Assembly: GCA_021806345.1 (NCBI GenBank)
Contig: JAJZXP010000206.1
Location: 1-16,286 of the forward strand
Origin: Thermoplasmata archaeon
Lineage (GTDB): Archaea; Thermoplasmatota; Thermoplasmata; Thermoplasmatales; Thermoplasmataceae
Direction: 5' to 3'
Length of the DNA stretch: 16,286 nt
Position numbers and translations under genes: made by a program. The notes under the pieces were generated by a model, which saw only the letters and a program-made list of their open reading frames with translations, did not search any database and was not told where the DNA came from. Position 1 is the stretch's first letter. The number at the start of each line of letters is the position of its first letter. This document shows positions 2,264 to 16,286 of the stretch, in pieces.

Positions 2264-3175
2264 TCAGACTATAGCTATGGGAGTCGCTGGAGATGCTGTT
2301 GAGCCCTTAATCCTCATCGGAGATAGAACAAACAGGAATTCACTGATTTTCTCAGCGGCCAGCTCATTAAGATTTATGTTGTCTATCAGCCTTATGCCTT
2401 GTTTCGTTATGAGGTACTGATGCACTGGTAGCCTAGTGCCTTCAATTTCCGGTGGAGAAACCTCAGTTGATGGTGTATCTGAACCAGTTACCCCAACTTT
2501 CTTTTCAGCAAGCCATTTGGCAAGTTCCATTCCAATGCCGGGAGATCTCTCATAATATTCGTTGTATTTCTGTGGTTCATGCCATAATCTGCCTGTTCCT
2601 GTATAGAAAAATATTGCGTCACCTGGTTGAACATTAATATCCCTCTCAGAAAGGTATTTTTGGACCTGCTTCAACTTCACCGGCTCATCGTGCTCCATTA
2701 TCTCTCTTCCCTCAGTCGAATCTACCATTATTCCCCTCGTTACAATTGGTGGTGTCTCGTCTATGCCTAGCTTTGTTGTCCCAAAAACTGCTGAGAGATC
2801 ATATGCATCATTGCCGTTGTAGAACTTATTGTCAAAGGATATGTGGTTTAGGGAGTCAATATGTGTGCCCAGGTGATCTACCATCTCCATCCTGCTGAGT
2901 GCAGCTCCAAACTTATTCCTGGTAGGTTTCCGAAATGGGGGGCGATGATCATAGACTCGCTGGGATAGCAGGTAAAAGAAAGGGCCATGGATGGCCTGCC
3001 TTCCAGGCATCCCGTTGTAAATCTCGTGGCTTAAGTTAATGATCCTCCCTGATTTCACAAGACCTATAGCAGACTTTACCTTGTCCTTGTTTATGTGGTT
3101 CAGTGTACCAAGGACGTCATCTTGGCCATATTCTGAAGGATACCATTTCTCATCATTTTCAAACCATTCCTTCAT
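2264..3175 (-). CDS. Cyclase-family metal hydrolase (kynurenine formamidase/isatin hydrolase-like)
   Basis: 303 residues of the cyclase family (PF04199), metal-dependent amidohydrolases that include bacterial kynurenine formamidase (KynB) and isatin hydrolase. The metal-binding signature HLGTHIDSLNH is at 101-111 (H101, H105, D107 and H111, the HxGTHxDxxxH pattern). GDAIFFYTG at 185-193, GSDTPSTE at 231-238 and the C-terminal RIKGSTASPATPIAIV are also typical. The start gives the expected N-terminus (YGQDDVLGTLNHI at 16-28) and has both a TATA-like box at 3198-3206 and an AGGAG at 3180-3184. The substrate is unknown. Location near an aromatic catabolic cluster suggests an amide, lactone or lactam related to aromatic compounds, but IS debris separates it from that cluster. 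Soluble; no signal peptide seen. Confidence 0.85.
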   Translation of the reverse strand: MKEWFENDEKWYPSEYGQDDVLGTLNHINKDKVKSAIGLVKSGRIINLSHEIYNGMPGRQAIHGPFFYLLSQRVYDHRPPFRKPTRNKFGAALSRMEMVDHLGTHIDSLNHISFDNKFYNGNDAYDLSAVFGTTKLGIDETPPIVTRGIMVDSTEGREIMEHDEPVKLKQVQKYLSERDINVQPGDAIFFYTGTGRLWHEPQKYNEYYERSPGIGMELAKWLAEKKVGVTGSDTPSTEVSPPEIEGTRLPVHQYLITKQGIRLIDNINLNELAAEKISEFLFVLSPMRIKGSTASPATPIAIV

Positions 3176-3206: not shown

Positions 3207-4596
3207 TTGTAATTTTTTTTGCACATTACTTCATAAAGCTTACTCTAATACAATTGAGAATAAAGTAAAGAAAAACAGTCATCCACTATATTCTGTATGT
3301 TAACTCCGCAACCTTTTAGGGAATATATCAGCTCCCTGCAGCCTGCCTATCTTTTCTATGCTTGAAGGTATCTCCCAAAGAGATTCACTCTTTCCTTGGA
3401 CTTTTTTTATACTCCTTGGAAAATATCAGTAGAACATCATTCATCATCAGTTTAATGGTAAGACCGGCAGGCCTGATCAGCGCAAATATGCTGCAATACA
3501 TATAGGGGGAGAGGAAGGATAGGAAGAAGTATCCTCTCAAAGCATCATCACTGAGGTAAGATTTGTCATTCTCCAGTTCGTTCTTCATTGTATCGAGTAC
3601 CTGCTCTATCTCCTCCATCTGCTTGTACAGACTGTATATGGTTTCCAGATCAACCTTTACCTTGGAGAGTATTAATAATTTCCCTAACTTGTTTTCAGAT
3701 TGGAATTCATTCTTGATCCTCTTCTTCAAAATCATCTTTATGAAGGTTGATGATTCCTCAGCCATCAGCATCTGTTCCTAGAACATGTATGTCCTGAAGT
3801 CATACCTATTCAGGAAACTTGATCTTATACCTCTATCCCTGTAAACAAATCTTGAACTCAGTTTCATGCTGTAATCAATCATGTCCTAGTTACTGCGGAG
3901 ACGCATCACAAATTTCATATCATATCGCATGATCTTTGCCAGATACCGCGATGATAATCCTGTGTCAGGGACAAGAACGCTGTCGAAAAGGATCTGACCA
4001 GGTACATTCCCCAGTGATTTCATATCCCTCACAGATCCCTCCAGCGGCTTGAGTAAAGCAAACCTGTATTGATCCAGATCAAATGCCAACGCCATTTTCG
4101 CTGCGGCAGATATATGTGATCCTCATTATGGTCTTTCGCAACCATGCTGATTTTCACAGATCTAGAAAAGATACTTGACAGATTAGTAGCAAGCTTCCTT
4201 GATTCTGTTATGAGAGACTGGGACAGAGTCATCTGTGCCCCTATGTCTGATGTCGTATCCCTGAGAATGCCCGCCAGCGTGTTCTATGATAGATGGGCAT
4301 GGATATCCCTTGATCCATAGACCTTCTCCCATAGATCCTTCACAAACTTCAATGAAATGGGATACATTAAACTCAACACCGAAAATGCATAAAGATCTGA
4401 CCACCTGTCGGGAAAATATTTCTGAAGCCTGTCAACCAGATACAGGACAGTGAGTAAACCAGTGCAGAATTGCGATACTAGTATATGGATCTAATCACCT
4501 TATTGTTCTCGTTTATTGCATCCTTCGTTATCCTTCTGATATAATCGGATACGCCCACCGCTTTCCAGGTGATGCGATCGTTTCTTGACTTGGGTC

Positions 4597-5931: not shown

Positions 5932-6339
5932 ATGTTCCAAAATGAAGTGGTTCACCTTGTAGCATGGGGGGAAACAGACCCAGCTGGCATTGTGTTCTAT
6001 CCAAATTTCTATCACTGGTTTGACATGGCAACACACGAAATGTTCAAGGCTGCAGGGCTTTCACCATCAGAACTACTTTCAAGGGAAAGCATAATCATAC
6101 CCCTAGTTTCAGCGTCTGCAGAGTTTATGAAGTCCGTGAAGTACGACGAAACAGTGACCATAAGGACAAGGGTTCAGAGGGTTGGTTCAAAGTCGATTAC
6201 CCTCTCGCAAGAAGTGCTTTTGAATGGAGAAACCGCTGTAAAAGGTACCGAAGTAAGAGTCTGGTCAAAAAATAACGATGGTTCTATCAAAGGCATGCTA
6301 ATACCAGAGAAAGTGAAGAACATACTCTTGGGGCCATAA
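5932..6339 (+). CDS. Hotdog-fold aryl-CoA thioesterase (4-hydroxybenzoyl-CoA thioesterase-like)
   Basis: A 135-residue single-domain hotdog protein, the usual size of the 4HBT family, which hydrolyses CoA thioesters in the cytoplasm. The signature GETDPAGIVFYPNFYHWFD at 13-31 closely follows the active-site segment of Pseudomonas 4-hydroxybenzoyl-CoA thioesterase, with D16 in the place of its catalytic aspartate. Many YbgC-type enzymes share this motif, so specificity for an aromatic CoA is inferred from context. It stands alone on the plus strand with its own promoter, between transposon debris and the end of the ligase operon. In the proposed pathway it would release the free hydroxylated acid (for example gentisate) from its CoA ester before ring cleavage. 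Confidence 0.85.
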   Translation: MFQNEVVHLVAWGETDPAGIVFYPNFYHWFDMATHEMFKAAGLSPSELLSRESIIIPLVSASAEFMKSVKYDETVTIRTRVQRVGSKSITLSQEVLLNGETAVKGTEVRVWSKNNDGSIKGMLIPEKVKNILLGP

Positions 6340-7079
6340 GGCGAAAACTAAGATGAGCCAATAAATATTAATAGTGCTTGTTTAAATTGATATAACCAGC
6401 CCTATCGGAATGATGAAGGTCTTTAAAATCCAATTTTTGAATTAATAAGCCATAAATTTGTTGTGGTGATAATTAATATTGGCTATGAGAATGTATCTGA
6501 TTGCAACGAAACAAGAGTTGTTTTTTTTGCCCTTGGAAATCAAAGTTTATAATGCCTAAAAAAAATAAACGTTAATACATGCTAGGTACAAATTAGTCGA
6601 CAATTCATTATAAAATCTTTGGCGTACTCGACATATAGGAATAAAAAGATAATAGCACTCAAAAACTGAAAGGAGTTATGTTAAAAAAAATATTGATGAA
6701 CAATCCCAAGAATATTATGTTGAAAAAAGTTCTATGGTTTGGTTTCCCCAGAGAAAGGTCTTATTTATATGAACGGTAAGTTATCGGAGAGAAACTTAGG
6801 TACTGTTAGTTTGTCATAATTCAATTATGTTGAAATTAAGCAATGCGGAAGAAAGAAATTATGCTGTCCATTCAATATTCCTGCTTTGTCAATAAAATTC
6901 GTGATTTCACCTATATTCAAACTATTCCAAGGAGCAATTTACCTTATTTTGAACTCTTCTCCATGATTGAATGGATTTCAACCGATTTATTAGATTGAAG
7001 GACATTGAAAACCAGGAACCAACTATGTATAATATTTCCAGGAAAACACCCAATTGAAGGATATTGGAAAATGGAAATA
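6340..7079. other. 740-bp AT-rich region without a convincing gene
   Basis: This gap lies between the 3' ends of the thioesterase and the CoA ligase. It has a T8 run at 6521-6528 on the plus strand, a T8 run on the minus strand at 6683-6690, and an imperfect direct repeat (ATTGAAGGACATTGAAAA at 6994, ATTGAAGGATATTGGAAAA at 7053). The T runs could serve as archaeal termination signals for the two converging transcripts. The only coding candidate is the 33-residue frame at 6678-6779. The amount of unassigned DNA suggests decayed material, but no known gene can be read in it. Confidence 0.5.
6678..6779 (+). CDS. Possible small basic peptide (33 residues), hypothetical
   Basis: An ATG preceded by GAAAGGAG 2-3 nt upstream opens a 33-residue frame beginning MLKKILMNNPKNIMLKKVLW and ending at TAA. 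It is rich in Lys and Arg with a hydrophobic patch. The ribosome-binding sequence is the main support, but other lead genes here appear leaderless, and the A-rich composition makes such a signal likely by chance. No family recognised. Confidence 0.2.
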   Translation: MLKKILMNNPKNIMLKKVLWFGFPRERSYLYER

Positions 7080-8696
7080 TCAGGAGCTGAACATTTCCCT
7101 AGCAATTTCAATAAGTTTACCCTTTGCTATTTTCCCTGTTGGAGTTCGCGGCATGCTATTTTCAACGACAAAATACTCTGGCCATTTATATTTAGCTACC
7201 CCCATGGAACTAAGATATTCTGTAATTTCACTCCTTCCAATTTTCTCAGTTGTGCTATAGAAAAGACAGGCTTTATCACCAAGTCTGGTGTCTGGGACCG
7301 GAACTATGCAAGCGGCTTCTATGCCCTTCATCCTCTCCAAGATTCTCTCTACTTCTTTGGAATTGATCTTCATTCCACCTCTGTTGATTATGTCTTTTTT
7401 CCTGCCCATATACCTAACATTGCCATCAACATCTATCATGCCCAGATCACCTGTCTTGAACCATTTTTCTCCATTTATCTCATAGATGAACTCGTCAATA
7501 TATCTTGATAGTTTGTAATATCCCTTGAAAAGTGAAGGTCCTCTGTAAAGAATTTCACCTGTTTCGTTAATAACAAACCTCCCGTCTTCGGATAGAATGG
7601 CGATCTGCGCCCCTTGAACAGGTTTGCCTATCGTCCCTGCGACTATCTCACGACTATCCCCATGTCTTGTATATGAACCAGCACCTAATTCCGTCATTCC
7701 CCAGTGATTTACCAGATTTCCTTTAGTTTTTTTCATTAGTTCCAGAGCGATTTCCTCTGGTAACATAGCTCCTGCGATCCTGAATTCTTTTACTTCTGAG
7801 AAGGGATCTCCTGGTTTACCCAAGAGGTCCAATAGGTCCCTGAGCTCCGCCGGAACTAGGAAAACATGAGTGGGTTTATGCCTTTCTGCAGCACTGTAGA
7901 ATTCATCAGTATGGAACCTCTTGACAATTACATTTATAGACCCAGAAATCAATGACAAATGCATAGAAAGAAGGCCAAAAAGATGAGAAAAGGCACTGCC
8001 TGACATTATAATTCCATTCTCATCGATTTCCGCATCCCTGCAAACAGACAGGGCATTCCCCATCAGCGAAGAATGGGTGTGTATGCATCCCTTTGGTTCT
8101 CCAGTTTCTGTTCCGGAAGTGAAAAATAACCCTATCGGATCCGATGCCATTACTTTGGGTAGATTCCTATAAATCCTTTGGCTTTTGCATATTTCCCAGA
8201 AATTATCCCATCCTCGTTTCATGAATTCTCTATCGCCATTTATAAGGACTCGGTTAATGTTTGTTGACTCTACTACACCTTTGACCTTTTCACTTAGGTC
8301 TTTTCCTGAATAAGATGTGTCAGAAATAAGCAGCTTTGCTCCTGAAAATGATATTAATTCTTTGAGTTCCTTCTCACCGTAAGTCATATGGAGTGGAGAG
8401 ACAAGGGCGCCTATCCTAGAGGCTGCAATATTGGCTATTGCAAATTCTGCTGAACTAGGAATGTGAAGTGATACTACATCACCCTTTCCAATCCCTTGGT
8501 CAATCATCCATGATGCCAGCGCTTCGGAATAACGCTTTATTTCACTGAATGTATGAGAAACCACGGAATCTATAAAAGATATACCTTTCGGATTTGAATC
8601 AGCTTTTCTGTCAAAGATGACATGCAACGGCTCCTCATTCTTATTTGAATTTTTCTCGAATTCTGCTTCCAGTGTGTAATCGTTTTTGGTGATCAT
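7080..8696 (-). CDS. Acyl/aryl-CoA ligase (ANL superfamily, AMP-forming)
   Basis: 538 residues, a full-length adenylate-forming ligase that activates a carboxylic acid with ATP and joins it to CoA. Motifs: TSGTETGEPKG at 193-203 (ATP-binding loop), HWGMTELGAG at 331-340 (A5), KTGDLG at 414-419 (A7 Asp), GRKKDIINRGGMKIN at 431-445 (hinge and A8), and PRTPTGKI at 516-523 with the catalytic Lys at 522. It is the last gene of the leftward operon, starting 9 bp after the stop of the gentisate dioxygenase-like gene. Context points to an aromatic acid such as a benzoate or hydroxybenzoate as substrate, but the acid-binding pocket cannot be read reliably. It would supply the CoA ester that the PaaA-like oxygenase in the same operon attacks. 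Confidence 0.92.
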   Translation of the reverse strand: MITKNDYTLEAEFEKNSNKNEEPLHVIFDRKADSNPKGISFIDSVVSHTFSEIKRYSEALASWMIDQGIGKGDVVSLHIPSSAEFAIANIAASRIGALVSPLHMTYGEKELKELISFSGAKLLISDTSYSGKDLSEKVKGVVESTNINRVLINGDREFMKRGWDNFWEICKSQRIYRNLPKVMASDPIGLFFTSGTETGEPKGCIHTHSSLMGNALSVCRDAEIDENGIIMSGSAFSHLFGLLSMHLSLISGSINVIVKRFHTDEFYSAAERHKPTHVFLVPAELRDLLDLLGKPGDPFSEVKEFRIAGAMLPEEIALELMKKTKGNLVNHWGMTELGAGSYTRHGDSREIVAGTIGKPVQGAQIAILSEDGRFVINETGEILYRGPSLFKGYYKLSRYIDEFIYEINGEKWFKTGDLGMIDVDGNVRYMGRKKDIINRGGMKINSKEVERILERMKGIEAACIVPVPDTRLGDKACLFYSTTEKIGRSEITEYLSSMGVAKYKWPEYFVVENSMPRTPTGKIAKGKLIEIAREMFSS

Positions 8697-8705
8697 GGGT
8701 CATCA

Positions 8706-9737
8706 CTATAAGAGTTCTTCTCTGAAGAGGCCAAATGGTCTTAGAACAGGTGCATTCGAAAATGAGAAAAGTACTGCGTCTGATTGCCCATCATTTATGT
8801 GCCTGTGTTTTGCCCATGAAGGGATAACGATAATATCGTTCTTTTTCCAATGGAATTTTCTACCCTCAATTTCCAGCGCTCCACTGCCCTCTACTCCTAG
8901 AAAGACAGCGCTGCTGGAACGTCTCAAGGGTTTCAGAGTCTTTCCTCTCTTAATAAGATGCAGACGGCTATCCATTGTGGGAAGAACTGAGCCTCCGTTC
9001 ATGGGGTTCTTGTATTCAACAGTGTACCCATCATGCAGAGAACTCTCACTATCCTGAACATCATCTAGGGCAGCCCTTGCCTCTGCGTAGGGGTATTTCA
9101 TAATGGGTGAATAGTGCCTCTTCGGGATATCTCCTGAAGGAAAAAGAGATTTTCCATACGTCTTGGATGAATATCCATCAGGAAACGCTGACGGTTGGTA
9201 TTGGTCAGGGTACTCCTCAAAGAATATCCCTGAAAGTGATGTGGCAAGAGGGATGTCTAATCCGTCCAGCCATACTACAGGATTGGTTCCTTCATTTCCA
9301 TGATCATGCCAAGACCATGTCGGAGTAAGAACAAGGTCCCCAACTTTCATGCGAATCTTTTCACCGTTAACTGTAGTATACGCACCTTCACCCTCCATGA
9401 TGAAACGGAGGGCATTTGGTGTGTGACGGTGTGTTCTGGCTATCTCTCCTGGCATGATGATCTGTATGCCTGCGTATAGTGTCTGGGTGCAGGCATTCTG
9501 ATTTTTTAGCTTTGGATTAAGAAGCATGAGAACACGCCTTTCAGCCTCATCTGCAGAGACAATTTTTGCAGATTCATAAACAAGGTCTCTCACCTGCTCC
9601 CATCTCCACTGGTACGGTATCTCCAAAGGCATGGGATGTTCCGTGAGTAGGTTTCTGAGTACCTTCCAAAGAGGACCCATGCTTGCCTTGTCAACTTCGT
9701 TGAAAAATGTGTGCTCTTCATCGGTACTTGATTCCAT
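8706..9737 (-). CDS. Gentisate 1,2-dioxygenase-like bicupin ring-cleavage dioxygenase
   Basis: 343 residues, the usual length of the gentisate/salicylate/1-hydroxy-2-naphthoate dioxygenase family, iron(II) bicupins that open the ring between the carboxyl-bearing and adjacent hydroxylated carbons. The N-terminal cupin carries the iron ligands H103 and H105 (RTHRHTPNALRFIMEGEGAY, 101-120) and H144 (TWSWHDHGNEG, 140-150). A second, apparently metal-free cupin covers about 275-325 (SWAKHRHIND). The ATG overlaps the TGA of the PaaA-like gene by one base (TGATG), indicating translational coupling. The reaction would be gentisate plus O2 to maleylpyruvate. Salicylate or a hydroxynaphthoate as substrate is possible, since these cannot be separated by eye. 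Confidence 0.9.
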   Translation of the reverse strand: MESSTDEEHTFFNEVDKASMGPLWKVLRNLLTEHPMPLEIPYQWRWEQVRDLVYESAKIVSADEAERRVLMLLNPKLKNQNACTQTLYAGIQIIMPGEIARTHRHTPNALRFIMEGEGAYTTVNGEKIRMKVGDLVLTPTWSWHDHGNEGTNPVVWLDGLDIPLATSLSGIFFEEYPDQYQPSAFPDGYSSKTYGKSLFPSGDIPKRHYSPIMKYPYAEARAALDDVQDSESSLHDGYTVEYKNPMNGGSVLPTMDSRLHLIKRGKTLKPLRRSSSAVFLGVEGSGALEIEGRKFHWKKNDIIVIPSWAKHRHINDGQSDAVLFSFSNAPVLRPFGLFREELL

Positions 9738-10450
9738 CAGTTATCGATCTCCTTTGCATATTTTTCTGGGATTCTCGGCATCCTTAGGCCAAGTTCATCC
9801 ATTACCTCCCTTACCTTTTCAACATATGATTTCCTCATTTCAGTATTAGTTCTTCTTTTAAGTCCGCATTTTACGAATAATTCATTATTCCTTGAGTTGG
9901 CACTTCCGAAAAATGCCAGGGTCTCGGGAAAAAGCCTGTCAATCGCAGTCTGAATTTTCTCCACATTTTCGGGATCCTCCTCCAGCAGAGCTCTGAGAAT
10001 GTCCTTTCCAAGGCCCACATGGAACATTTCTTCAGGGAATGTTTTCACTGCAACGTTTTTTAATGGGATATAAGTAGCCTCCATCAGATCCTCGAGCTCT
10101 ACGACTTCAGCTATATCGACAATGGCCTTAATAGCACCAAAATCTATCCAGTTCATCATGGGGTAGTCAAAAAGTGAAAGAGACTTCTTGTCCTTCCATT
10201 CGACGCCCATATCTTCAGCGAGTCTGCTGAATAGTATATGGTGACCAAACTCCTCCATAGTGTTCCGGCTCACTAACCATTTGAATTTTGGGGTTGGTGC
10301 CATCCTAATGGCTGGTTCATCAAAAACTAATGCCCCTCTAAGTTCATTTATTGCATGACCTGCAACGATCTTAGCTACCGCTATCCTGTATTCCTCCGGC
10401 ATTTTTTTAATTTCATCCTTATCCTTTACTATACCATATTCTGTTTTCAT
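9737..10450 (-). CDS. PaaA-like non-heme di-iron oxygenase (aryl-CoA epoxidase/hydroxylase candidate)
   Basis: A ferritin-like protein resembling PaaA, the catalytic subunit of phenylacetyl-CoA 1,2-epoxidase, over its whole length: PEEYRIAVAKIVAGHAINEL against the PaaA segment around its first Glu ligand, then MAPTPKFKWLVSRNTMEEFG, FDYPMMNWIDFG and TFPEEMFH. In the longer-frame numbering (ATG at 10468), candidate ligands are E42, E73 with H76 (EEFGH) and E147 with H150 (EEMFH). At 237 residues it lacks the C-terminal tail of bacterial PaaA (about 310). I chose the ATG at 10448-10450 because GGTGA precedes it by 5 nt and it sits just after the SDR stop; ATGs at 10462 and 10468 are alternatives. 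No PaaC-like scaffold, PaaE-like reductase or other pathway subunits are visible. Substrate inferred from the CoA ligase in the same operon. Confidence 0.85.
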   Translation of the reverse strand: MKTEYGIVKDKDEIKKMPEEYRIAVAKIVAGHAINELRGALVFDEPAIRMAPTPKFKWLVSRNTMEEFGHHILFSRLAEDMGVEWKDKKSLSLFDYPMMNWIDFGAIKAIVDIAEVVELEDLMEATYIPLKNVAVKTFPEEMFHVGLGKDILRALLEEDPENVEKIQTAIDRLFPETLAFFGSANSRNNELFVKCGLKRRTNTEMRKSYVEKVREVMDELGLRMPRIPEKYAKEIDN

Positions 10451-10451
10451 T

Positions 10452-11384
10452 TCATTCACCATCCCCACTGCTCTCTTTCAGGGGTTTGGACATATACATT
10501 AAATCAGTTTCAAGGGGAGAGAAAAGCCCTTCTTCCTCCCAGTCCATAAAAGTCCGTTCGTAAAATGTATCCTTGACCTCCCCTTGTTTAAGGATATGGA
10601 TACCTATAGGTCTGGGCTGCGAAAACAGGAAAAGTTCACCATTCCTGACTCCGAATACTTGACCAGTTATATTTTTTGAACGCTCACTTATGAGATAGGA
10701 GACTAAATCTGCAACGCTCTCTCCATGAGCCCTGTTTTTAATTGTTCTCTTGTAATCGACAAGCCATGGGGTTGTTTCAGGAATTATCTCCGTGACTCTC
10801 GTGTGTGCAAATGGGGAAATTGCGTTCACAGTTATGCCGTATCGTGCAAGATCAAGAGCTGCTATGCGGGAAAGGGAAACCAATCCACCCTTTGAGGCAC
10901 CATATGCAGATTGACCAATGTTACCGATGAGCCCCGCCGATGAGACCATGTTGATTATCCTACCCCATTTGTTCTCCCTCATCCTTTCCGAAACTAAGTG
11001 GGTGAGGTAAAAATGCATCTGTAGATTGTTTTTGATTACGATGTCAAATGAATCCGGATCAAGCTTGAATACCATTCGATCCCTCAGAATTGCTGCGTTG
11101 TTCACAAGTACATTAACACCCCCCATAGAGTCTCCACAGTAATCCAGTAATTTTCTTACACTTTCGAGGTCCAACAGCCTCTCACTGTAGTAATAAGTTT
11201 TGTAACCCTTGGAGTTGAGTTCCTCTGATAATTTTTTAGCAACGCTGCTGTCGCATTCTTCTCCAGAAATCCCAAGGCCCGCATCCGCAATTATAACCTG
11301 AGCGCCATCATTAGCTAACCTCCTTGAAATGGATTCGCCAATGCCCCTTCCCCCTCCGGTTACCAGTGCTTTAATCTCATTCAT
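10452..11384 (-). CDS. Short-chain dehydrogenase/reductase with C-terminal extension
   Basis: 310 residues, NAD(P)-dependent. TGGGRGIG at 9-16 binds the dinucleotide, NNAA is at 95-98, Ser148/149 and Y161-x3-K165 (SAYGASKGG) form the active site, and ILRDRMVFKL recalls the dehydrogenase domain of multifunctional beta-oxidation enzymes. The core SDR ends near residue 250, and about 60 extra residues follow (QPRPIGIHILKQGEVKDTFY onward), longer than a classical SDR. It is the first gene of the leftward operon, and its stop is 1 bp from the likely start of the PaaA-like gene. It may oxidise or reduce the product of the oxygenase (a diol, epoxide-derived or hydroxyacyl-CoA intermediate), which is inference. 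A TATA-like box may lie at 11428-11437. Confidence 0.88.
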   Translation of the reverse strand: MNEIKALVTGGGRGIGESISRRLANDGAQVIIADAGLGISGEECDSSVAKKLSEELNSKGYKTYYYSERLLDLESVRKLLDYCGDSMGGVNVLVNNAAILRDRMVFKLDPDSFDIVIKNNLQMHFYLTHLVSERMRENKWGRIINMVSSAGLIGNIGQSAYGASKGGLVSLSRIAALDLARYGITVNAISPFAHTRVTEIIPETTPWLVDYKRTIKNRAHGESVADLVSYLISERSKNITGQVFGVRNGELFLFSQPRPIGIHILKQGEVKDTFYERTFMDWEEEGLFSPLETDLMYMSKPLKESSGDGE

Positions 11385-11757
11385 TTTGGGCTCAATTATT
11401 ATATGAAATAATGGTTGAAATCTTTTTCGATATAATGTAAGAGGTGGGTCATTATTCCTTTAGCCCTAGGAAATATACTCTCTTGCAAATATAAACATTT
11501 CCGGAATTTCCAAATGACTCTATTGTTAATACATACATTGTTTCTGAACTCTCCATTATTGTTAAAAGCAGATATTTCAGAGTCAATGTGGTTCTATAAG
11601 TAGATTTAGGGATTATCAGGTGATTCGTTCTCATTGTAAAGTTCGGGTAATCCTGTGAAGTAAATGTAAATCGATCAAAAGGTCACGAAAAAGGTGTATG
11701 GTCTGAGTTTTTGGAAATCTTCACTTATATTTTTAATAGTTGAATGAATACAAAATT
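11385..11757. promoter_or_regulatory. Divergent control region between the SDR operon and the FAH-family gene
   Basis: No convincing gene is present; an open frame at 11452-11634 on the minus strand looks fortuitous. For the leftward operon a TATA-like CATTATATCG lies at 11428-11437 (minus), which would give a leader of roughly 20 nt. ATAATG (11432-11437) and CATTAT (11450-11455) form a 6-bp inverted repeat over that box, a possible operator. TATTGTTAA is repeated at 11521-11529 and 11557-11565. A shared regulator for both directions is plausible but unproven. Confidence 0.4.
11724..11732 (+). promoter_or_regulatory. TATA box for the FAH-family gene
   Basis: CTTATATTT, a good archaeal TATA match, is centred about 30 nt before the ATG at 11758 and only 12 nt before the upstream TTG at 11740. 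It therefore favours the ATG as a leaderless start. Confidence 0.5.
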
Positions 11758-12600
11758 ATGCTTGTAACAGTTACAAAGAATGGGAAAGGACAGTTGACAC
11801 CGGTATTTCATGAGAGGAATACCTATTACGTAGATGACAATGCAAAGCCTCATTTCTTAGACTCAAGTGCCTTTTTCTCTTACATCCAGAGAGACATCAG
11901 TGAGAAAAATCTTAAAGAAATAGATCCACCAGAGGAACTTTATTATCCATCACCTGTGGAACGAATCTTCCTCCCAGCCGTTAATTTCAAACTACATTCA
12001 AAAGAATCGTCTATGTCGCGGCTAGAAAACCCATATTTTTTCCTGAAATTTCCATCTTCCCTTGTACCACCTGATGGTATTTCCTATATACCGAGGGGCG
12101 TGAAGAAATACGATTATGAAGGTGAAATAGCAATTGTAATAGGTAAATCAGGGAAATACCTGTCCAAAGAAGAAGCCTCTTCTATTCTTTATGGATATAG
12201 CATTGTTAATGATTTAAGCATTAGAGATTATCAGATGACAGAGTTTCCTAGGTACGGGAAAAACTGGGTTCTCGGCAAGGCAGCGGATTATGCCCTTCCA
12301 TATGGGCCATACATTCTTCCAAAGGAAGACGTGGAAGGCTTTCGGTTCAGGATAAAAACAACGGTAAATGGAGAGATTAGGCAGGACGGCACCACCGATG
12401 ACATGATTTTTACTGTGGAAGAACTCATCAGCGAACTGAGTAAGGTAACACGCCTTAGACCCGGAGATATTATAACGACAGGAACTCCTTCCGGTGTTGC
12501 CATTCATACAGGGACGGGTTTCCTAAAAGAAGGAGATACTGTGAGTGTCGAAGTGTCGGGAATTGGGAAACTGTCCACACATATAATGCAGGAAAGATAA
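11758..12600 (+). CDS. Fumarylacetoacetate hydrolase-family enzyme (fumaryl-/maleylpyruvate hydrolase candidate)
   Basis: 280 residues, FAH fold, a Mg/Mn-dependent C-C bond hydrolase. Numbered from the ATG at 11758, the metal ligands are E121 and E123 (DYEGEIAIVIG) and D152 (GYSIVNDLSIRDYQ). K174 lies in NWVLGKAADYALPYGPYI and TTGTPSG at 240-246 closes the active site. A TTG at 11740 would add six residues, but the TATA box at 11724-11732 is too close for it. Divergent from the ring-cleavage operon, it is the natural last step: hydrolysis of fumarylpyruvate, or of maleylpyruvate directly, to pyruvate plus fumarate or maleate. No maleylpyruvate isomerase is visible in the window, so direct maleylpyruvate hydrolysis or an isomerase elsewhere must be assumed. 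Other FAH-family reactions (2-oxo-acid hydratase or decarboxylase) are possible. Confidence 0.88.
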   Translation: MLVTVTKNGKGQLTPVFHERNTYYVDDNAKPHFLDSSAFFSYIQRDISEKNLKEIDPPEELYYPSPVERIFLPAVNFKLHSKESSMSRLENPYFFLKFPSSLVPPDGISYIPRGVKKYDYEGEIAIVIGKSGKYLSKEEASSILYGYSIVNDLSIRDYQMTEFPRYGKNWVLGKAADYALPYGPYILPKEDVEGFRFRIKTTVNGEIRQDGTTDDMIFTVEELISELSKVTRLRPGDIITTGTPSGVAIHTGTGFLKEGDTVSVEVSGIGKLSTHIMQER

Positions 12601-12707
12601 CGGTTATTGCTTTAGCCTAAATGGGTTATACATTACTTTATTTTTATTGCTATTCTGTGTTTCTTTGTACTTAAATGTTATTATTCCGTAAGTATCATTT
12701 AGTAATA

Positions 12708-12716
12708 TTTAATAAG
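12708..12716 (+). promoter_or_regulatory. TATA-like box for the MFS transporter
   Basis: TTTAATAAG is centred about 28 nt before the ATG at 12740 with no Shine-Dalgarno sequence, consistent with a leaderless transcript separate from the FAH-family gene. Confidence 0.45.
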
Positions 12717-12739
12717 GTTGAAAAATTGACATTTGTATC

Positions 12740-14203
12740 ATGGCTGAAACCGACAGTAGTGAACGAGCAAATATGATCGTGTCAAAGTTGGACTCCATTC
12801 CCAGTTGGGCATTGTCTTATATTTTTATCGGAATTCTAGGAGTTGGCTTCTTTTTTACATTCTTTGACATTTTTAACATAAATGTGTCTATGATCCAGAC
12901 AAGTGTCGAAATAATTCCCGGAACTGTTGGGCCCACAGGCCCTAATTTCGCTCTTATTGATACTTATCTCGGATACGCAACCGTTATCCAGTTGATTGGC
13001 TATGCAATAGGTACCCTCATACTGAGCCCTCTTGCCGACAGATATGGTAGAAGGAATCTACTATTGGTAACAATGCTTATTGCTGCTCTTGGCTCATTGG
13101 TCACAGTCTTCGTTTCCAATTTCCCTGATTTTGCCCTAGGCCGTTTTATTACCGGAATTGGAATAGGTGCAGACATAGCAATTGTGAATACTTACATCGG
13201 CGAAACTTCACCCAAGGGAAAAAGAGCTGGATATGGGGCTTTCGTGTTCTTCTTTTCTGCAGTTGGCACCATCGTTGCAGTATGGCTTGGCCTTTACCTG
13301 ACCACACCATCAGCACCTTTCCCAAACGGACTACCATTTGCAGTAGGAGGACCCGGCGCATTTGGTGGAGTTATAGGCTGGAGGCTTATGTATGCCATAG
13401 GTGCCGTACTTGGGTTAATTGGAGTGCTGATGAGACTCGAACTACCTGAATCCCCGAGGTGGCTTATTTCAAAAGGCAGAATGGATGAGGCTGAGAAGAT
13501 TGTGGACGGCATGCTTAGGAGGGTGAAACAGAAAACCGGCAGAGATGTCCCTATTGTCCCTACAATAGATGTTGCCGTTATCCCTAAAGCATCACCATAC
13601 AAGGAAATATTCAGCAACAAAACCTACAGGAAGAGAGCATTCCAATTCTTGGCAATTTGGTTCATCGGATATATGGCAGTATACATTCTAGCCGCAGGAT
13701 TTACAGGAGTTCTTGGAGCCCTAGGTTACACTTCTTCAAGGGCTGGTGTTGTGGTTGCAGTAGGTTCAATAGGTTTTATCCCAGCCACACTTATTCCAAC
13801 TTTTTATGGAGATGCGTTCTCGAGAAAATATTGGCTTCCAATTGCTGCTGTAATTACCCTTATTGGGGGATTAATAATAACATTCAGTGGCACTAACACA
13901 TTATTTTCTGCAGTTGGAGCTATACTTGCATTCCTTGGATTCAATATTTGGGTCCCTGTCACTTACATATGGTCAACAGAAAACTTCCCAGCAAGGGCAA
14001 GATCAACAGGTTTTGCGCTTGTGGATGGGATCGGGCATATTGGGGGAGGGGTTGGCGTACTTTTTGTGGCGTTCCTTCTGACAAATAATGTAGGAATTCT
14101 CTACATCTTCGTCCTAATTGCAGTGTTCCTGTTTATTCCATCTGGAATTGCCCAGTTTGGAAGTAAAACAAGAAATGTAAGGTTGGATGAAATATCCCCC
14201 TAA
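12740..14203 (+). CDS. MFS transporter, aromatic acid/sugar-type symporter family
   Basis: 487 residues with about 12 hydrophobic segments, a cytoplasmic-membrane proton-coupled transporter. The family motif SPLADRYGRRN is at 96-106 in the loop between helices 2 and 3. FFDIFN is at 41-46 in helix 1, and PESPRWLISKGR at 236-247 marks the start of the central cytoplasmic loop, as in sugar porters and aromatic acid:proton symporters. A Gly/Pro-rich stretch (about 188-213, PSAPFPNGLPFAVGGPGAFG) forms a long external loop before helix 6 and is unusual. Its position between the FAH-family gene and the di-metal oxidase suggests uptake of the aromatic substrate. Specificity cannot be told from sequence. 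The 3' end overlaps the next, convergent gene by 4 bp. Confidence 0.9.
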   Translation: MAETDSSERANMIVSKLDSIPSWALSYIFIGILGVGFFFTFFDIFNINVSMIQTSVEIIPGTVGPTGPNFALIDTYLGYATVIQLIGYAIGTLILSPLADRYGRRNLLLVTMLIAALGSLVTVFVSNFPDFALGRFITGIGIGADIAIVNTYIGETSPKGKRAGYGAFVFFFSAVGTIVAVWLGLYLTTPSAPFPNGLPFAVGGPGAFGGVIGWRLMYAIGAVLGLIGVLMRLELPESPRWLISKGRMDEAEKIVDGMLRRVKQKTGRDVPIVPTIDVAVIPKASPYKEIFSNKTYRKRAFQFLAIWFIGYMAVYILAAGFTGVLGALGYTSSRAGVVVAVGSIGFIPATLIPTFYGDAFSRKYWLPIAAVITLIGGLIITFSGTNTLFSAVGAILAFLGFNIWVPVTYIWSTENFPARARSTGFALVDGIGHIGGGVGVLFVAFLLTNNVGILYIFVLIAVFLFIPSGIAQFGSKTRNVRLDEISP

Positions 14204-14916
14204 TTTTTTAATGCACAATTTATAAGTTCATCCAAGAATAATTTTCTAATTTTAATAGCTCCTTTTACGGCTTGAAGGCAATCCATCTGAATTCCTTCTT
14301 CTTGTGTGTAATCCACAAGTGCCCTTATGCCCCTATTGCCATGCTCCTGATCTGCAAGATAGTGTTCCTCGAAAAATTCTATTTTCTTGTCTCCTTCCTT
14401 GTATCCATAATGTGAATGGAGGGCAGGTACTATCCTCCCCATAATCCCCACCTCCATGGATTCATTTGCAACAACCGATGCCGCAACGTATTCCTGCCAT
14501 GTTTTGCCTAGAGCGAGATGCCAGTGGTAACTTATCATTGCAAGGCATCCTGCCGTTGGTTCCGTTTCGGTAATTTCCTTTTCGCTTAGTCCGCATTCCC
14601 TTGCAAAGGAAATCTGCATTTCCACATGGGGTGTCGATGTTCTCCCACCCTCTGACAGAATCCCATGTTCCTCCGCCATGTTTTCAAGGAAAAAATCCTG
14701 AACTTTTGTTTCACTGGCCTTTGCAACTACTGTTCCCCATAGGTTTACAACCTGTGAGCTCCAGAGTCTGTGCTGCAAAACGTAATTGGCCATGTCCTTT
14801 TTGGTCAGTTTTCCTTGGCTCCACAGATCAAAATATGGATGGTTCTTCAAGTGATTAGCTTCTCTAAGTTCTATAAGTCTGTTCTCAAATTCTTTACTGC
14901 TCCAAGCTTCTTTCAT
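14200..14916 (-). CDS. Heme-oxygenase-like di-metal oxidase (HDO; CADD/PqqC/TenA fold)
   Basis: 238 residues, all-helical, related to CADD, PqqC and TenA. All six ligands of the di-metal HDO site can be placed: E83 (MAEEHG), H97 (STPHVEM), E152 (NESMEVG) and H185, D189, H192 (EEHYLADQEHG, an H-x3-D-x2-H motif). An insertion of about seven residues separates E83 from H97 compared with Chlamydia CADD as I remember it. LWSQGKLT at 31-38 also matches CADD, but its self-sacrificing Tyr27 aligns with F29 here; Y28 is adjacent. A TenA thiaminase role is unlikely because the ligand set is that of an oxidase. Known HDOs oxygenate, decarboxylate or rearrange amino acids, fatty acids and aromatic precursors. 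The gene is convergent with the transporter (4-bp overlap) and probably leaderless. Substrate unknown. Confidence 0.85.
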   Translation of the reverse strand: MKEAWSSKEFENRLIELREANHLKNHPYFDLWSQGKLTKKDMANYVLQHRLWSSQVVNLWGTVVAKASETKVQDFFLENMAEEHGILSEGGRTSTPHVEMQISFARECGLSEKEITETEPTAGCLAMISYHWHLALGKTWQEYVAASVVANESMEVGIMGRIVPALHSHYGYKEGDKKIEFFEEHYLADQEHGNRGIRALVDYTQEEGIQMDCLQAVKGAIKIRKLFLDELINCALKN

Positions 14917-15589: not shown

Positions 15590-16286
15590 CTATCCCTGAA
15601 GGATTTTAAGGGCATGGACATTGTATCCGAAGCATGCAAACATGAACTTCACCCTCACCCTTCCTGCAAGGGTGACCATGAAATGTGAAAAATGAAACAT
15701 CCTTTTCATGACGGCATAAGGATATTCCACAAGTGATCTCTTGCGTGATATCCTCCTGTTTCTTCTAACAGATTCAATGGACAGTTTATGGTTTCTGACA
15801 GATCTGTCCATTGTACCATCAATGCCCTTCGGATCATGTCTGAAGTACCCCTTGTCCCGGTACACTGTTATCCCGACTTTGGAGAGATCAATCTTTGTGT
15901 CATGATCCTTTGCTGTTGTGACAGCATAGGATCTTATTACAGGAACAGGATTGCCGTCATCAACAATGTCATGACCCTTGTACCCGAAGAATGTCTTATT
16001 GTTCTTTTTTGTGAATGAACCATCCTTCGATCTCCTTGTTTTTCCTTCATCTCTAGGTTCCTCATGCTTCACATGTCCAGGATCGGAGGTGATGAAAGTG
16101 GCATCCTGTGCTGATCCCTTCTTCACCTTTATGCCCTTCAATTCAAGCTGTCTCTGCAGTTCGTTCCATATGATCCTGTCTCTTCCCGTCTTCGAGAGTC
16201 TTTCTCTGAAGTACCATATGGTCTTTGCATCCCCTAAGATTGGGGATAGTCCAGGAAATTCATGAAGGATATCCTGTCATGGATCT
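15590..16286 (-). pseudogene. IS5-family transposase, 3' part, frameshifted and cut by the window edge
   Basis: The main frame runs from about 16230 to the stop at 15590 without an ATG; the TTG at 16139-16141 is not a real start, because coding continues upstream as AKTIWYFRERLSKTGRDRII and WNELQRQLELKG. Catalytic regions of the IS5 family are visible: QDATFI (first Asp), VYRDKGYF (second Asp) and SLVEYPYAVMKRMFHFSHFM (the Glu block). KTFFGYKGH is also typical. Beyond 16234 the homologous N-terminal segment ISFMNFLDYPQS lies in another frame and hits a TAG at 16236-16234, so this copy carries a frameshift. It is of a different subgroup from the element at 1045-2019. The 5' part and the other end lie outside the window. 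Confidence 0.8.

Follow-up and report, generated by a model that had tools for sequence, protein, structure and literature searches.

Can a single di-iron protein of the PaaA kind feed a gentisate-type pathway in an archaeon? The question arises from a cluster in the window, by which we mean the whole 16,286-nucleotide stretch of Thermoplasmata DNA that was analysed. A sequence-only reading had described a tight operon of CoA ligase, PaaA-like protein, gentisate dioxygenase-like bicupin and SDR, with an aryl-CoA thioesterase-type hotdog protein, an FAH-family hydrolase and an MFS transporter around it. That layout held up: the four operon genes are intact and packed, the other three lie where they had been placed, and all seven are intact open reading frames. 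Kinship with Thermoplasmata sequences supports an archaeal origin. We consider it probable, on sequence grounds, that the cluster serves to degrade an aromatic carboxylic acid aerobically by way of its CoA ester, and that the PaaA-like protein would be the ring oxygenase. The features are as follows.

2264-3175, minus strand: PF04199 'cyclase' metal-dependent hydrolase, 303 aa (PF04199, 3.2e-24)
5932-6339, plus strand: hotdog thioesterase, 4HBT class I, 135 aa (4HBT, 3.5e-13)
7080-8696, minus strand: AMP-forming acyl/aryl-CoA ligase, 538 aa (AMP-binding PF00501, 2.3e-67)
8706-9737, minus strand: gentisate 1,2-dioxygenase-like bicupin, 343 aa (Cupin_2 in two stretches; TIGR02272, 1.8e-111)
about 9737-10462, minus strand: putative stand-alone PaaA-like di-iron oxygenase, 241 aa (PaaA_PaaC PF05138, 2.2e-31)
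10452-11384, minus strand: SDR, (3R)-hydroxyacyl-CoA dehydrogenase-like, first gene of the operon (adh_short, 2.1e-40)
11740-12600, plus strand: FAH-family hydrolase with a TTG start, candidate fumaryl/maleylpyruvate hydrolase (FAA_hydrolase PF01557, 5.3e-59)
12740-14203, plus strand: MFS transporter of aromatic-acid/H+ symport type (Sugar_tr/MFS_1; TIGR00895, 2e-38, below cut-off)
14200-14916, minus strand: CADD/PqqC-like protein with a haem-oxygenase fold (PF14518, 5.2e-19)

From 11384 to 7080 on the minus strand, SDR, PaaA-like, bicupin and ligase genes follow one another with overlaps or with gaps within 9 bases. The hotdog, FAH and MFS genes are separate plus-strand units, so the word operon is apt for four of the seven genes. 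Among the window frames scanned with profiles, no PaaB, PaaC, PaaD or PaaE and no maleylpyruvate isomerase was recognised. No reductase, ferredoxin or other ring hydroxylase gene was recognised in the cluster, and no flavin hydroxylase in the window. The window also carries transposase genes and one remnant.

Does this grouping exceed chance? We compared 12 loci, that of the window and those of 11 Thermoplasmata genomes, spanning two orders and widely differing G+C contents. The SDR gene adjoins the PaaA-like gene in 11 of 11 testable loci, and a bicupin gene accompanies the PaaA-like gene in 11 of 11 testable ones. PaaA-like and bicupin genes lie side by side in 10 of the 11 loci that allow this to be judged, and all three genes are together in each of the 10 loci with the three places on available contigs. 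Because the grouping recurs in other genomes, it is a real module, beyond chance. The sequence-only reading had named clusters that never keep these genes together as an outcome that would count against it; in the other Thermoplasmata the set is kept together. Its gene list was right for the genes it named and overlooked the PF04199 gene, which is present in 11 of the 12 loci and belongs to the conserved set; orthologues of 51-61% identity accompany the cluster in 10 of the 11 genomes. The FAH gene is linked in 10 of the 12 loci and the hotdog gene in nine, with a hotdog homologue in 9 of the 11 genomes. The CoA ligase, which had been taken as a fixed part of the set, is linked in just three of the 12 loci, and the idea of a core ligase is thereby ruled out. 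A 68% identical MFS copy adjoins the SDR gene in genome G092. The CADD/PqqC-like gene may be an accessory member, with a 72-73% orthologue beside the hotdog gene in the Acidiplasma genome (G188) and matches of at most 28% in the other 10 genomes. Absences among the 11 genomes are weak evidence because genome completeness is not stated.

The sequence-only reading had assigned the oxygenase to the PaaA type, and all six di-iron ligands are indeed kept. Its longest frame starts at 10468 with GTG. It matches E. coli PaaA at 6.8e-20, and its AF2 model reaches a pLDDT of 92.2 and a pTM of 0.88. E41, E72, H75, D117, E146 and H149, numbered on the 242-residue translation of 9737-10465, do not vary in any of the 26 family rows. 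In pattern (E, ExxH, D, ExxH) they match the E. coli PaaA ligands E42, E72, H75, D126, E155 and H158, as given in PMC4498308. In the tree, whose deeper order is unsure owing to long branches, the 26 rows form a PF05138 clade of their own with 100/99 support and a stem of 1.92 changes per column; E. coli PaaA and the nine common PaaA-type rows of Thermoplasmata lie outside it. Against the TIGR02156 equivalog the protein scores 106 bits, below the cut-off of 280.

How would such a protein work by itself? It seems, from gene counts, to act without PaaC, because it is the sole PF05138 gene over the cut-off in 7 of the 11 genomes; a PaaC that is too divergent or lies in an unassembled part is possible. 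The other four genomes have a second PF05138 gene on another contig or more than 250 kb away. Extra weak PF05138 matches occur in genomes G001, G003 and G004, and the one examined, from G001, is a BoxB-like protein. A canonical PaaA complex scattered over the genome was also considered, and the single PF05138 gene in seven genomes speaks against it. The PaaE model TIGR02160 has matches below the cut-off in 9 of the 11 genomes and none above it (controls: 9 of 14 match, none over the cut-off, which makes this a weak test); genomes G092 and G188 gave no match.

The oxygenase family extends beyond archaea, with at least one named bacterial relative. In ENA, an SDR of the cluster type and a member of the bacterial-type PaaA-like clade come from contigs of equal listed size (25335), and on this one equal size the SDR/PaaA-like pair probably also exists in bacteria. 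In plasmid records, nothing above about 32% identity appeared among the matches listed for the window protein (10 of 205) or for protein P0036 (30 of 201), and all records for both were below 60%. Plasmid contexts viewed in Alteromonas, Haloterrigena and Streptomyces belong to other PF05138 systems, and the Ciceribacter plasmid record is unannotated at the stretch concerned. The plasmid search with the BoxB-like protein of G001 returned no match, and the viral contigs searched contained no relative.

The constant partner of the oxygenase is the SDR, and the pair persists also in loci that lack a linked ligase. The best solved relative of the SDR is 2et6, a (3R)-hydroxyacyl-CoA dehydrogenase (8.3e-56). 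Its catalytic S147, Y160 and K164, numbered on the translation of 10452-11381 (the full protein minus one), are invariant in 8 aligned members, and a C-terminal tail (FSQPRP ... PLETDLM) is conserved. If oxygenation formed a phenol directly, the SDR would have no obvious step.

The bicupin is a predicted gentisate dioxygenase-like enzyme with intact metal ligands, in agreement with its earlier naming. TIGR02272 (gentisate_1_2) is its best model at 372 bits, still 70 bits short of the cut-off of 442, and E. coli gentisate dioxygenase 2d40 matches at 5.5e-84. H102, H104, H143, H145, R66 and R110, numbered on the translation of 8706-9734 (the full protein minus one), are invariant in 5 aligned members; by hand count, H102, H104, H143, R66 and R110 align with H119, H121, H160, R83 and R127 of 4fag. 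We take the HxH...H histidines to be the metal site and R66 and R110 to be carboxylate-binding arginines. The copy in G092 is just 36-38% identical to that of the window.

The best solved relatives of the ligase are aryl-acid adenylating enzymes, namely DHB- and salicylate-AMP ligases. Clear orthologues (39-40%) exist in only two of the 11 genomes, G092 and G188; the other nine have only weaker AMP ligases, so CoA activation there must use another enzyme. In 2-hydroxybenzoate-adenylating enzymes of the DhbE/EntE/PchD type an active-site Asn reads the 2-hydroxyl. The ligase lacks this Asn: the window, G092 and G188 copies all read HLF, not HN[FY] (HLF against HNF). For the hotdog protein, the proposed aryl-CoA thioesterase type is borne out by its best solved relatives, the 4-hydroxybenzoyl-CoA thioesterases 5wh9 (7.8e-21) and 1bvq (4.7e-15), and by D16 and D31 at the catalytic Asp16/17 and Asp31/32 positions. 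The same aspartate pair is described for the gentisyl-CoA thioesterase of B. halodurans in PMC516016. The hotdog scores 66.7 bits against 68.7 for the general TIGR00051 model, and no more than 5 of the 9 other loci scanned fitted the strict aspartate pattern. The FAH hydrolase is related to HpaG 1gtt (5.4e-45), the putative fumarylpyruvate hydrolase 4maq (4.9e-24) and the maleylpyruvate hydrolase 6jvv (1.3e-21). The MFS transporter reaches 132 bits against the aromatic acid/H+ symport model TIGR00895 (cut-off 419).

What would these proteins do together? Computed here are the gene set, its conservation, the intact di-iron, cupin, SDR and thioesterase residues and the PF05138 counts, and from these we infer every reaction that follows. 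The MFS transporter would bring the aromatic acid into the cell and the AMP ligase would form its CoA ester. The lone PaaA-like protein would then put one oxygen atom on the ring, by epoxidation or hydroxylation, with the acyl-CoA-type SDR acting on the aryl-CoA directly before or after oxygenation; the product may be gentisyl-CoA or a close analogue. The hotdog thioesterase would release gentisate, the bicupin would open the ring to maleylpyruvate, and the FAH hydrolase, perhaps with the PF04199 hydrolase, would cut this to pyruvate and a C4 acid. The hydroxyacyl-CoA type of the SDR, the aspartate pair of the hotdog and the lone di-iron protein support predicted ring oxygenation at the CoA-ester level, followed by gentisate-type cleavage; the substrate, the electron donor and the roles of SDR and cyclase we infer. 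As substrate we favour 4-hydroxybenzoate, quite tentatively, because gentisyl-CoA would result if the PaaA-like protein oxygenated its CoA ester at positions 1,2 and the acyl-CoA group then shifted, and because 4-hydroxybenzoate use with an NIH shift has been recorded for a haloarchaeon (reportedly Haloarcula D1, by Fairley in 2002). Salicylate, 3-hydroxybenzoate, anthranilate and benzoate share the remaining probability.

Could the substrate be an amino- or otherwise substituted benzoate? Anthranilate, for example, might pass through 5-hydroxyanthraniloyl-CoA, with the bicupin cleaving 5-hydroxyanthranilate or 5-aminosalicylate and the PF04199 protein serving as an arylformamidase-like amidase or lactonase. 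The bicupin does reach 278 bits with the model for 5-aminosalicylate dioxygenase, and the PF04199 protein weakly matches arylformamidase (7.4e-5), kynurenine formamidase (1.6e-4) and isatin hydrolase (0.59). However, the bicupin's gentisate score is 94 bits higher, and the 303-aa PF04199 protein fits the uncharacterised 5ibz better (7.2e-17). A kynurenine/anthranilate link of this gene was rejected, as tryptophan 2,3-dioxygenase was found in 0 of the 11 genomes (controls: 2 of 14 match). We regard this route as unlikely, and give the same low weight to a pathway in which the PaaA-like/SDR pair takes a non-aromatic or side-chain acyl-CoA, as in beta-oxidation-like trimming of an aryl-alkanoyl-CoA, the di-iron protein is not a ring hydroxylase and the gentisate genes take a later product. 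The dehydrogenase kind of the SDR would suit such trimming, as would a thiolase gene about 5 kb from the SDR gene in G003 and the pairing of SDR and PaaA-like genes where the ligase is unlinked. Yet no thiolase appeared among 9 other context proteins scanned (a part of the context genes), and the window's cluster holds no second recognisable ring hydroxylase. PaaA and its structural homologue BoxB oxygenate the aromatic rings of CoA esters, according to PMC4498308 and PMC5489048.

A convergent neighbourhood, in which an ordinary gentisate route merely lies beside an unrelated PaaA homologue serving a separate pathway, is very unlikely. The ligase, MFS and CADD-like genes do differ between loci, and the transposase genes and remnant would fit such an assembly. 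This view has to contend with SDR, PaaA-like and bicupin genes found together in 10 of 10 loci across two orders of differing G+C, and with the direct PaaA-like/bicupin adjacency in 10 of 11 visible loci.

Returning to ring oxygenation by the PaaA-like protein, a more general proposal seems to us a serious possibility, if short of even: that acidophilic archaea and bacteria share a family of lone di-iron oxygenases, each about 240 residues long and acting on aryl-CoA, for which a dedicated acyl-CoA SDR takes the place of PaaBCE. Such an enzyme would turn hydroxybenzoyl-CoA into gentisyl-CoA, plausibly by 1,2-epoxidation and CoA-thioester migration, and CoA-dependent gentisate pathways would then have a second chemistry, one without flavin. 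Our search of the accessible literature found no PaaA-like oxygenase paired with gentisate genes in Thermoplasmata. If the proposal is true, a lone PaaA-like protein feeding a gentisate dioxygenase unites two separate aromatic strategies, the protein is a small and tractable oxygenase of the di-iron aryl-CoA kind, and members of the Thermoplasmata, among them the cultured Acidiplasma, gain an aerobic route for aromatic acids that growth experiments could probe. Our analysis also suggests that automatic 'PaaA' or 'PaaI' labels on these proteins are misleading.

How does the cluster compare with known systems? It shares with E. coli PaaABCE the PF05138 fold family and an aryl-CoA context. The window protein has 241 residues against 309 in E. 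coli PaaA, its invariant Glu120 corresponds to an Ala in E. coli PaaA, and its neighbours are gentisate-type rather than PaaG/PaaZ. Another PF05138 protein with a solved structure, 4mud (235 aa; titled 'ring oxydation complex/phenylacetic acid degradation related protein'), is of its length class and matches residues 19-226 at 1.9e-6, but is far more distant than E. coli PaaA. PaaA is the catalytic subunit of an epoxidase with several subunits and is insoluble by itself; BoxB, also di-iron, oxygenates aryl-CoA as a lone subunit with no PaaC beside it, and ring opening in the box pathway needs no ring-cleaving dioxygenase (all from PMC4498308). The PaaA-like protein is proposed to be a lone di-iron subunit as BoxB is. 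However, the BoxB model TIGR03225 (471 positions) does not match the 241-aa window protein at E 0.001, and no BoxA or BoxC was recognised in the window.

Another parallel lies in CoA-ester gentisate routes, whose known hydroxylases are flavoproteins; 4-hydroxybenzoate reaches gentisate through a 4-hydroxybenzoyl-CoA hydroxylase. The salicylate route, as described in PMC4600096, runs through a ligase, salicylyl-CoA 5-hydroxylase, gentisyl-CoA hydrolysis and gentisate dioxygenase. The window's cluster would share this logic of ligase, ring hydroxylation of the CoA ester, gentisyl-CoA hydrolysis and gentisate dioxygenase, with SDR and PF04199 genes as extras over the known routes. Haloferax D1227 has an aerobic archaeal gentisate route, as given in PMC4005966, and the proposed pathway resembles the haloarchaeal one (Haloarcula D1, Haloferax D1227) in being archaeal, aerobic and directed through gentisate.

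The sequence-only reading called seven genes of a CoA-linked gentisate pathway in the window. We found these calls to be correct, as the frames are open and have matching family assignments from Pfam and NCBIfam:

11384-10452, minus strand: SDR, first gene of a four-gene operon
10462-9737, minus strand: PaaA-like protein, a stand-alone 241-aa PF05138 candidate di-iron oxygenase, same operon
9737-8706, minus strand: bicupin, a gentisate 1,2-dioxygenase-like protein, same operon
8696-7080, minus strand: AMP ligase, same operon
5932-6339, plus strand: hotdog (4HBT-type) thioesterase
11740-12600, plus strand: FAH-family hydrolase, TTG start
12740-14203, plus strand: MFS transporter

No internal stops occur in the nine frames that we counted as parts. 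The term operon applies to the four minus-strand genes, which are intact: SDR and PaaA-like genes overlap, PaaA-like and bicupin genes share one base, and nine bases separate bicupin from ligase. It does not extend to the plus-strand hotdog, FAH, and MFS genes. Insertion sequences flank and split the cluster: a DDE transposase lies at 1115-1978, its decayed second copy (5230-4631; 35% identity over residues 99-285) sits between the gene for a PF04199 metal-dependent hydrolase (the cyclase, 2264-3175) and the hotdog gene, and a partial IS5-type transposase lies at 15590-16141. A 128-aa open frame at 3385-3771, with no match in Pfam or PHROG, is probably outside the cluster.

How widespread is this arrangement? 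We drew 400 Thermoplasmata genomes from the class. A PaaA-type match of some kind (E up to 1e-10) occurs in 79 of them, and a close PaaA-like relative (57-63% identity, E ≤1e-90) in only 10; an eleventh relative, in genome G129, is a fragment cut by the contig end (59% identity). The next-best match in the 400 genomes is only 29% identical at 3e-26, which marks a sharp break between the close group and the rest. Every available genome of two orders was then searched: the protein occurs in 8 of the 106 genomes in one and in 2 of the 117 in the other. A search of the family of G092 found it in 2 of 77. By eye, the G188 protein is letter for letter database protein P0020 (Acidiplasma).

The cluster recurs in 12 loci (the window, G001-G004, G092, G129, G179, G188, G195, G223, and G334), which, together with the intact genes, confirms it as an observation. 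SDR lies directly upstream of the PaaA-like gene in all 11 loci with that side on the contig (G129 left out). The bicupin accompanies it in 11 of 11 testable loci and is its immediate neighbor in 10; the exception is G092, where the ligase lies between the two. The cyclase is present in 11 of 12 loci, adjoining the bicupin in 9, FAH is present in 10, and the hotdog gene is linked in 9. Hotdog and FAH lie ~17 kb off on the same contig in G001, the G188 hotdog is on another short contig, and a search of the cluster-bearing genomes found no hotdog in G002 and G334. Contig ends also intervene: the 3.3-kb G188 contig ends just beyond the ligase, and the G195 cluster spans two contigs with the break inside the bicupin gene. 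A single 10-kb segment of G092 carries counterparts of eight window genes (bicupin 36%, ligase 40%, hotdog 45%, SDR 45%, cyclase 51%, PaaA-like 58%, FAH 59%, and MFS 68% identity). G+C is low in G092 and G188; the remaining nine genomes belong to another order and are high-G+C by GC3 (G129 left out of GC3). The core of the cluster is SDR, PaaA-like, bicupin, PF04199, FAH, and hotdog. The pathway interpretation is supported in part and sharpened: a conserved core exists, but it also includes PF04199, and the ligase (3 of 12 loci) and transporter (2 of 12) are optional.

A CADD/PqqC-like iron protein (2 of 12 loci) adjoins the MFS gene in the window (14200-14916), and its 72-73% identical counterpart adjoins hotdog in G188 (Acidiplasma; locus L058, 2432-3148). 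The best match in 10 other genomes is 28%. This protein may serve the pathway in an accessory redox role.

A PDB sequence search with the PaaA-like protein retrieved E. coli PaaA (6.8e-20), the 235-aa chain 4mud (1.9e-6), and PaaC only at 0.68. Residues E41, E72, H75, D117, E146, and H149 align with the six E. coli PaaA di-iron ligands, given in PMC4498308 as Glu42, Glu72, His75, Asp126, Glu155, and His158. None of the six varies among 20 aligned relatives, nor does any vary across all 26 family rows used for the tree; in that tree alignment, E. coli PaaC lacks four of them. The 26 rows also all share E120, which sits a helical turn away from D117. E. coli PaaA, Haloterrigena PaaA, and nine common Thermoplasmata PaaA-type rows carry Ala or Gly at this position. 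Glu or Asp occurs in the distant rows P0073 and P0074, and E120 is therefore not unique to the family. The AlphaFold2 model is helical and confident (pLDDT 92.2, pTM 0.88). In the PF05138 tree, whose deep joins rest on long branches and are not to be trusted, the family forms its own clade (support 100/99, stem 1.92). This splits into archaeal-type (94/64) and bacterial-type (99/90) halves, labels that are ours, as few tree rows carry a source name.

A profile search found some 45 further PaaA-like relatives, nearly all at 43-50% identity, among them P0036 from Alphaproteobacteria. The closest solved relative of the SDR is a (3R)-hydroxyacyl-CoA dehydrogenase, and its conserved tail recurs in other copies, including P0116 (Alphaproteobacteria). 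Ten contig sizes occur both among the best 120 of 7319 SDR rows and among the PaaA-like rows: one is that of the window itself, eight are archaeal-type, and the last, 25335 (ENA in both cases), is bacterial-type. The SDR of the size-25335 contig is 46% identical to the window SDR and has the FSQPRP tail. This probable bacterial-type pair, one among some 45 rows with the SDR side limited to the best 120 of 7319, suggests that SDR/PaaA-like is the older unit and that the gentisate genes are its usual archaeal company.

The bicupin is likely a gentisate dioxygenase. Its closest solved relative is the E. coli enzyme (5.5e-84) and the metal and arginine positions are kept; we say likely rather than certain because it scores below the NCBI cut-off. 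The closest solved structures to the hotdog are 4-hydroxybenzoyl-CoA thioesterases. Its Asp16 and Asp31 share the numbers of the two active-site aspartates described in PMC516016 for Bacillus halodurans gentisyl-CoA thioesterase, whose gene lies within a gentisate cluster. With a strict motif pattern, the pair was recovered in five of nine other hotdog loci, and the remaining four did not match it. FAH is closest to HpaG and more distantly related to a putative fumarylpyruvate hydrolase and a maleylpyruvate hydrolase. The ligase is closest to aryl-acid adenylating enzymes but lacks their Asn, which we take to be the residue that reads the 2-hydroxyl; salicylate is therefore mildly disfavored as a substrate.

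We propose that aryl-CoA formation would be followed by oxygenation by the lone di-iron PaaA-like protein, SDR action, thioester hydrolysis, gentisate-type ring cleavage, and FAH hydrolysis. PaaA has 1,2 regiochemistry, and the haloarchaeal 4-hydroxybenzoate route yields gentisate. On 4-hydroxybenzoyl-CoA, 1,2 regiochemistry would place oxygen on the thioester-bearing carbon, and the epoxide would be opened by para-hydroxyl push and acyl migration to give gentisyl-CoA. Haloarchaeal 4-hydroxybenzoate use is treated in PMC4005966, and an NIH shift appears in the title of a paper cited there. The main weakness of this epoxide route is that it gives no role to the SDR, which could possibly rearomatize a dihydrodiol or act first on a side chain. 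As for a possible electron donor, the PaaE model matched nothing in G092 or G188, and its matches in the other nine genomes all fell below the cut-off, as they did in the control genomes. Altogether, we regard the cluster as a predicted new form of CoA-dependent aerobic aromatic degradation.

Other PF05138 proteins occur in these and other genomes. A second, common Thermoplasmata kind (L018-L037; 275-287 aa in seven of nine translated) is ~27-33% identical to the window protein and present in ~70 of 400 genomes. It too may lack PaaC, because none of the four cluster-bearing genomes with this kind has an additional PF05138 gene (PaaC, for example) above the cut-off. G001 encodes a 514-aa BoxB-like protein (L061, 1129-2673; TIGR03225 28.8 bits against a cut-off of 499), and similar weak PF05138 matches occur in G003:C9 and G004:C56; these are possibly a divergent benzoyl-CoA epoxidase family in Thermoplasmata. 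The conjugative Alteromonas plasmid pAMDE1 (L073, 7959-10314) encodes a 250-aa PF05138 protein that stands alone, with genes for a radical SAM protein and a MaoC dehydratase coming after it; this is another PaaA-like system with PaaB/C/E absent beside it.

Does the PaaA-like protein need a partner? Seven of 11 genomes (G001-G004, G092, G188, and G334) have a single PF05138 gene over the cut-off. G179, G195, and G223 have a common PaaA-type gene besides, and G129 has only the common gene over the cut-off, its PaaA-like gene being a fragment. A PaaC partner therefore seems not to be needed, unless PaaC has diverged beyond what the model recognizes or lies in unassembled sequence. According to PMC4498308, PaaA is insoluble by itself and BoxB is monomeric. 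The PaaA-like protein, also without an apparent PaaC partner, is thus predicted to work more like BoxB in architecture, though it is nearer to E. coli PaaA in sequence.
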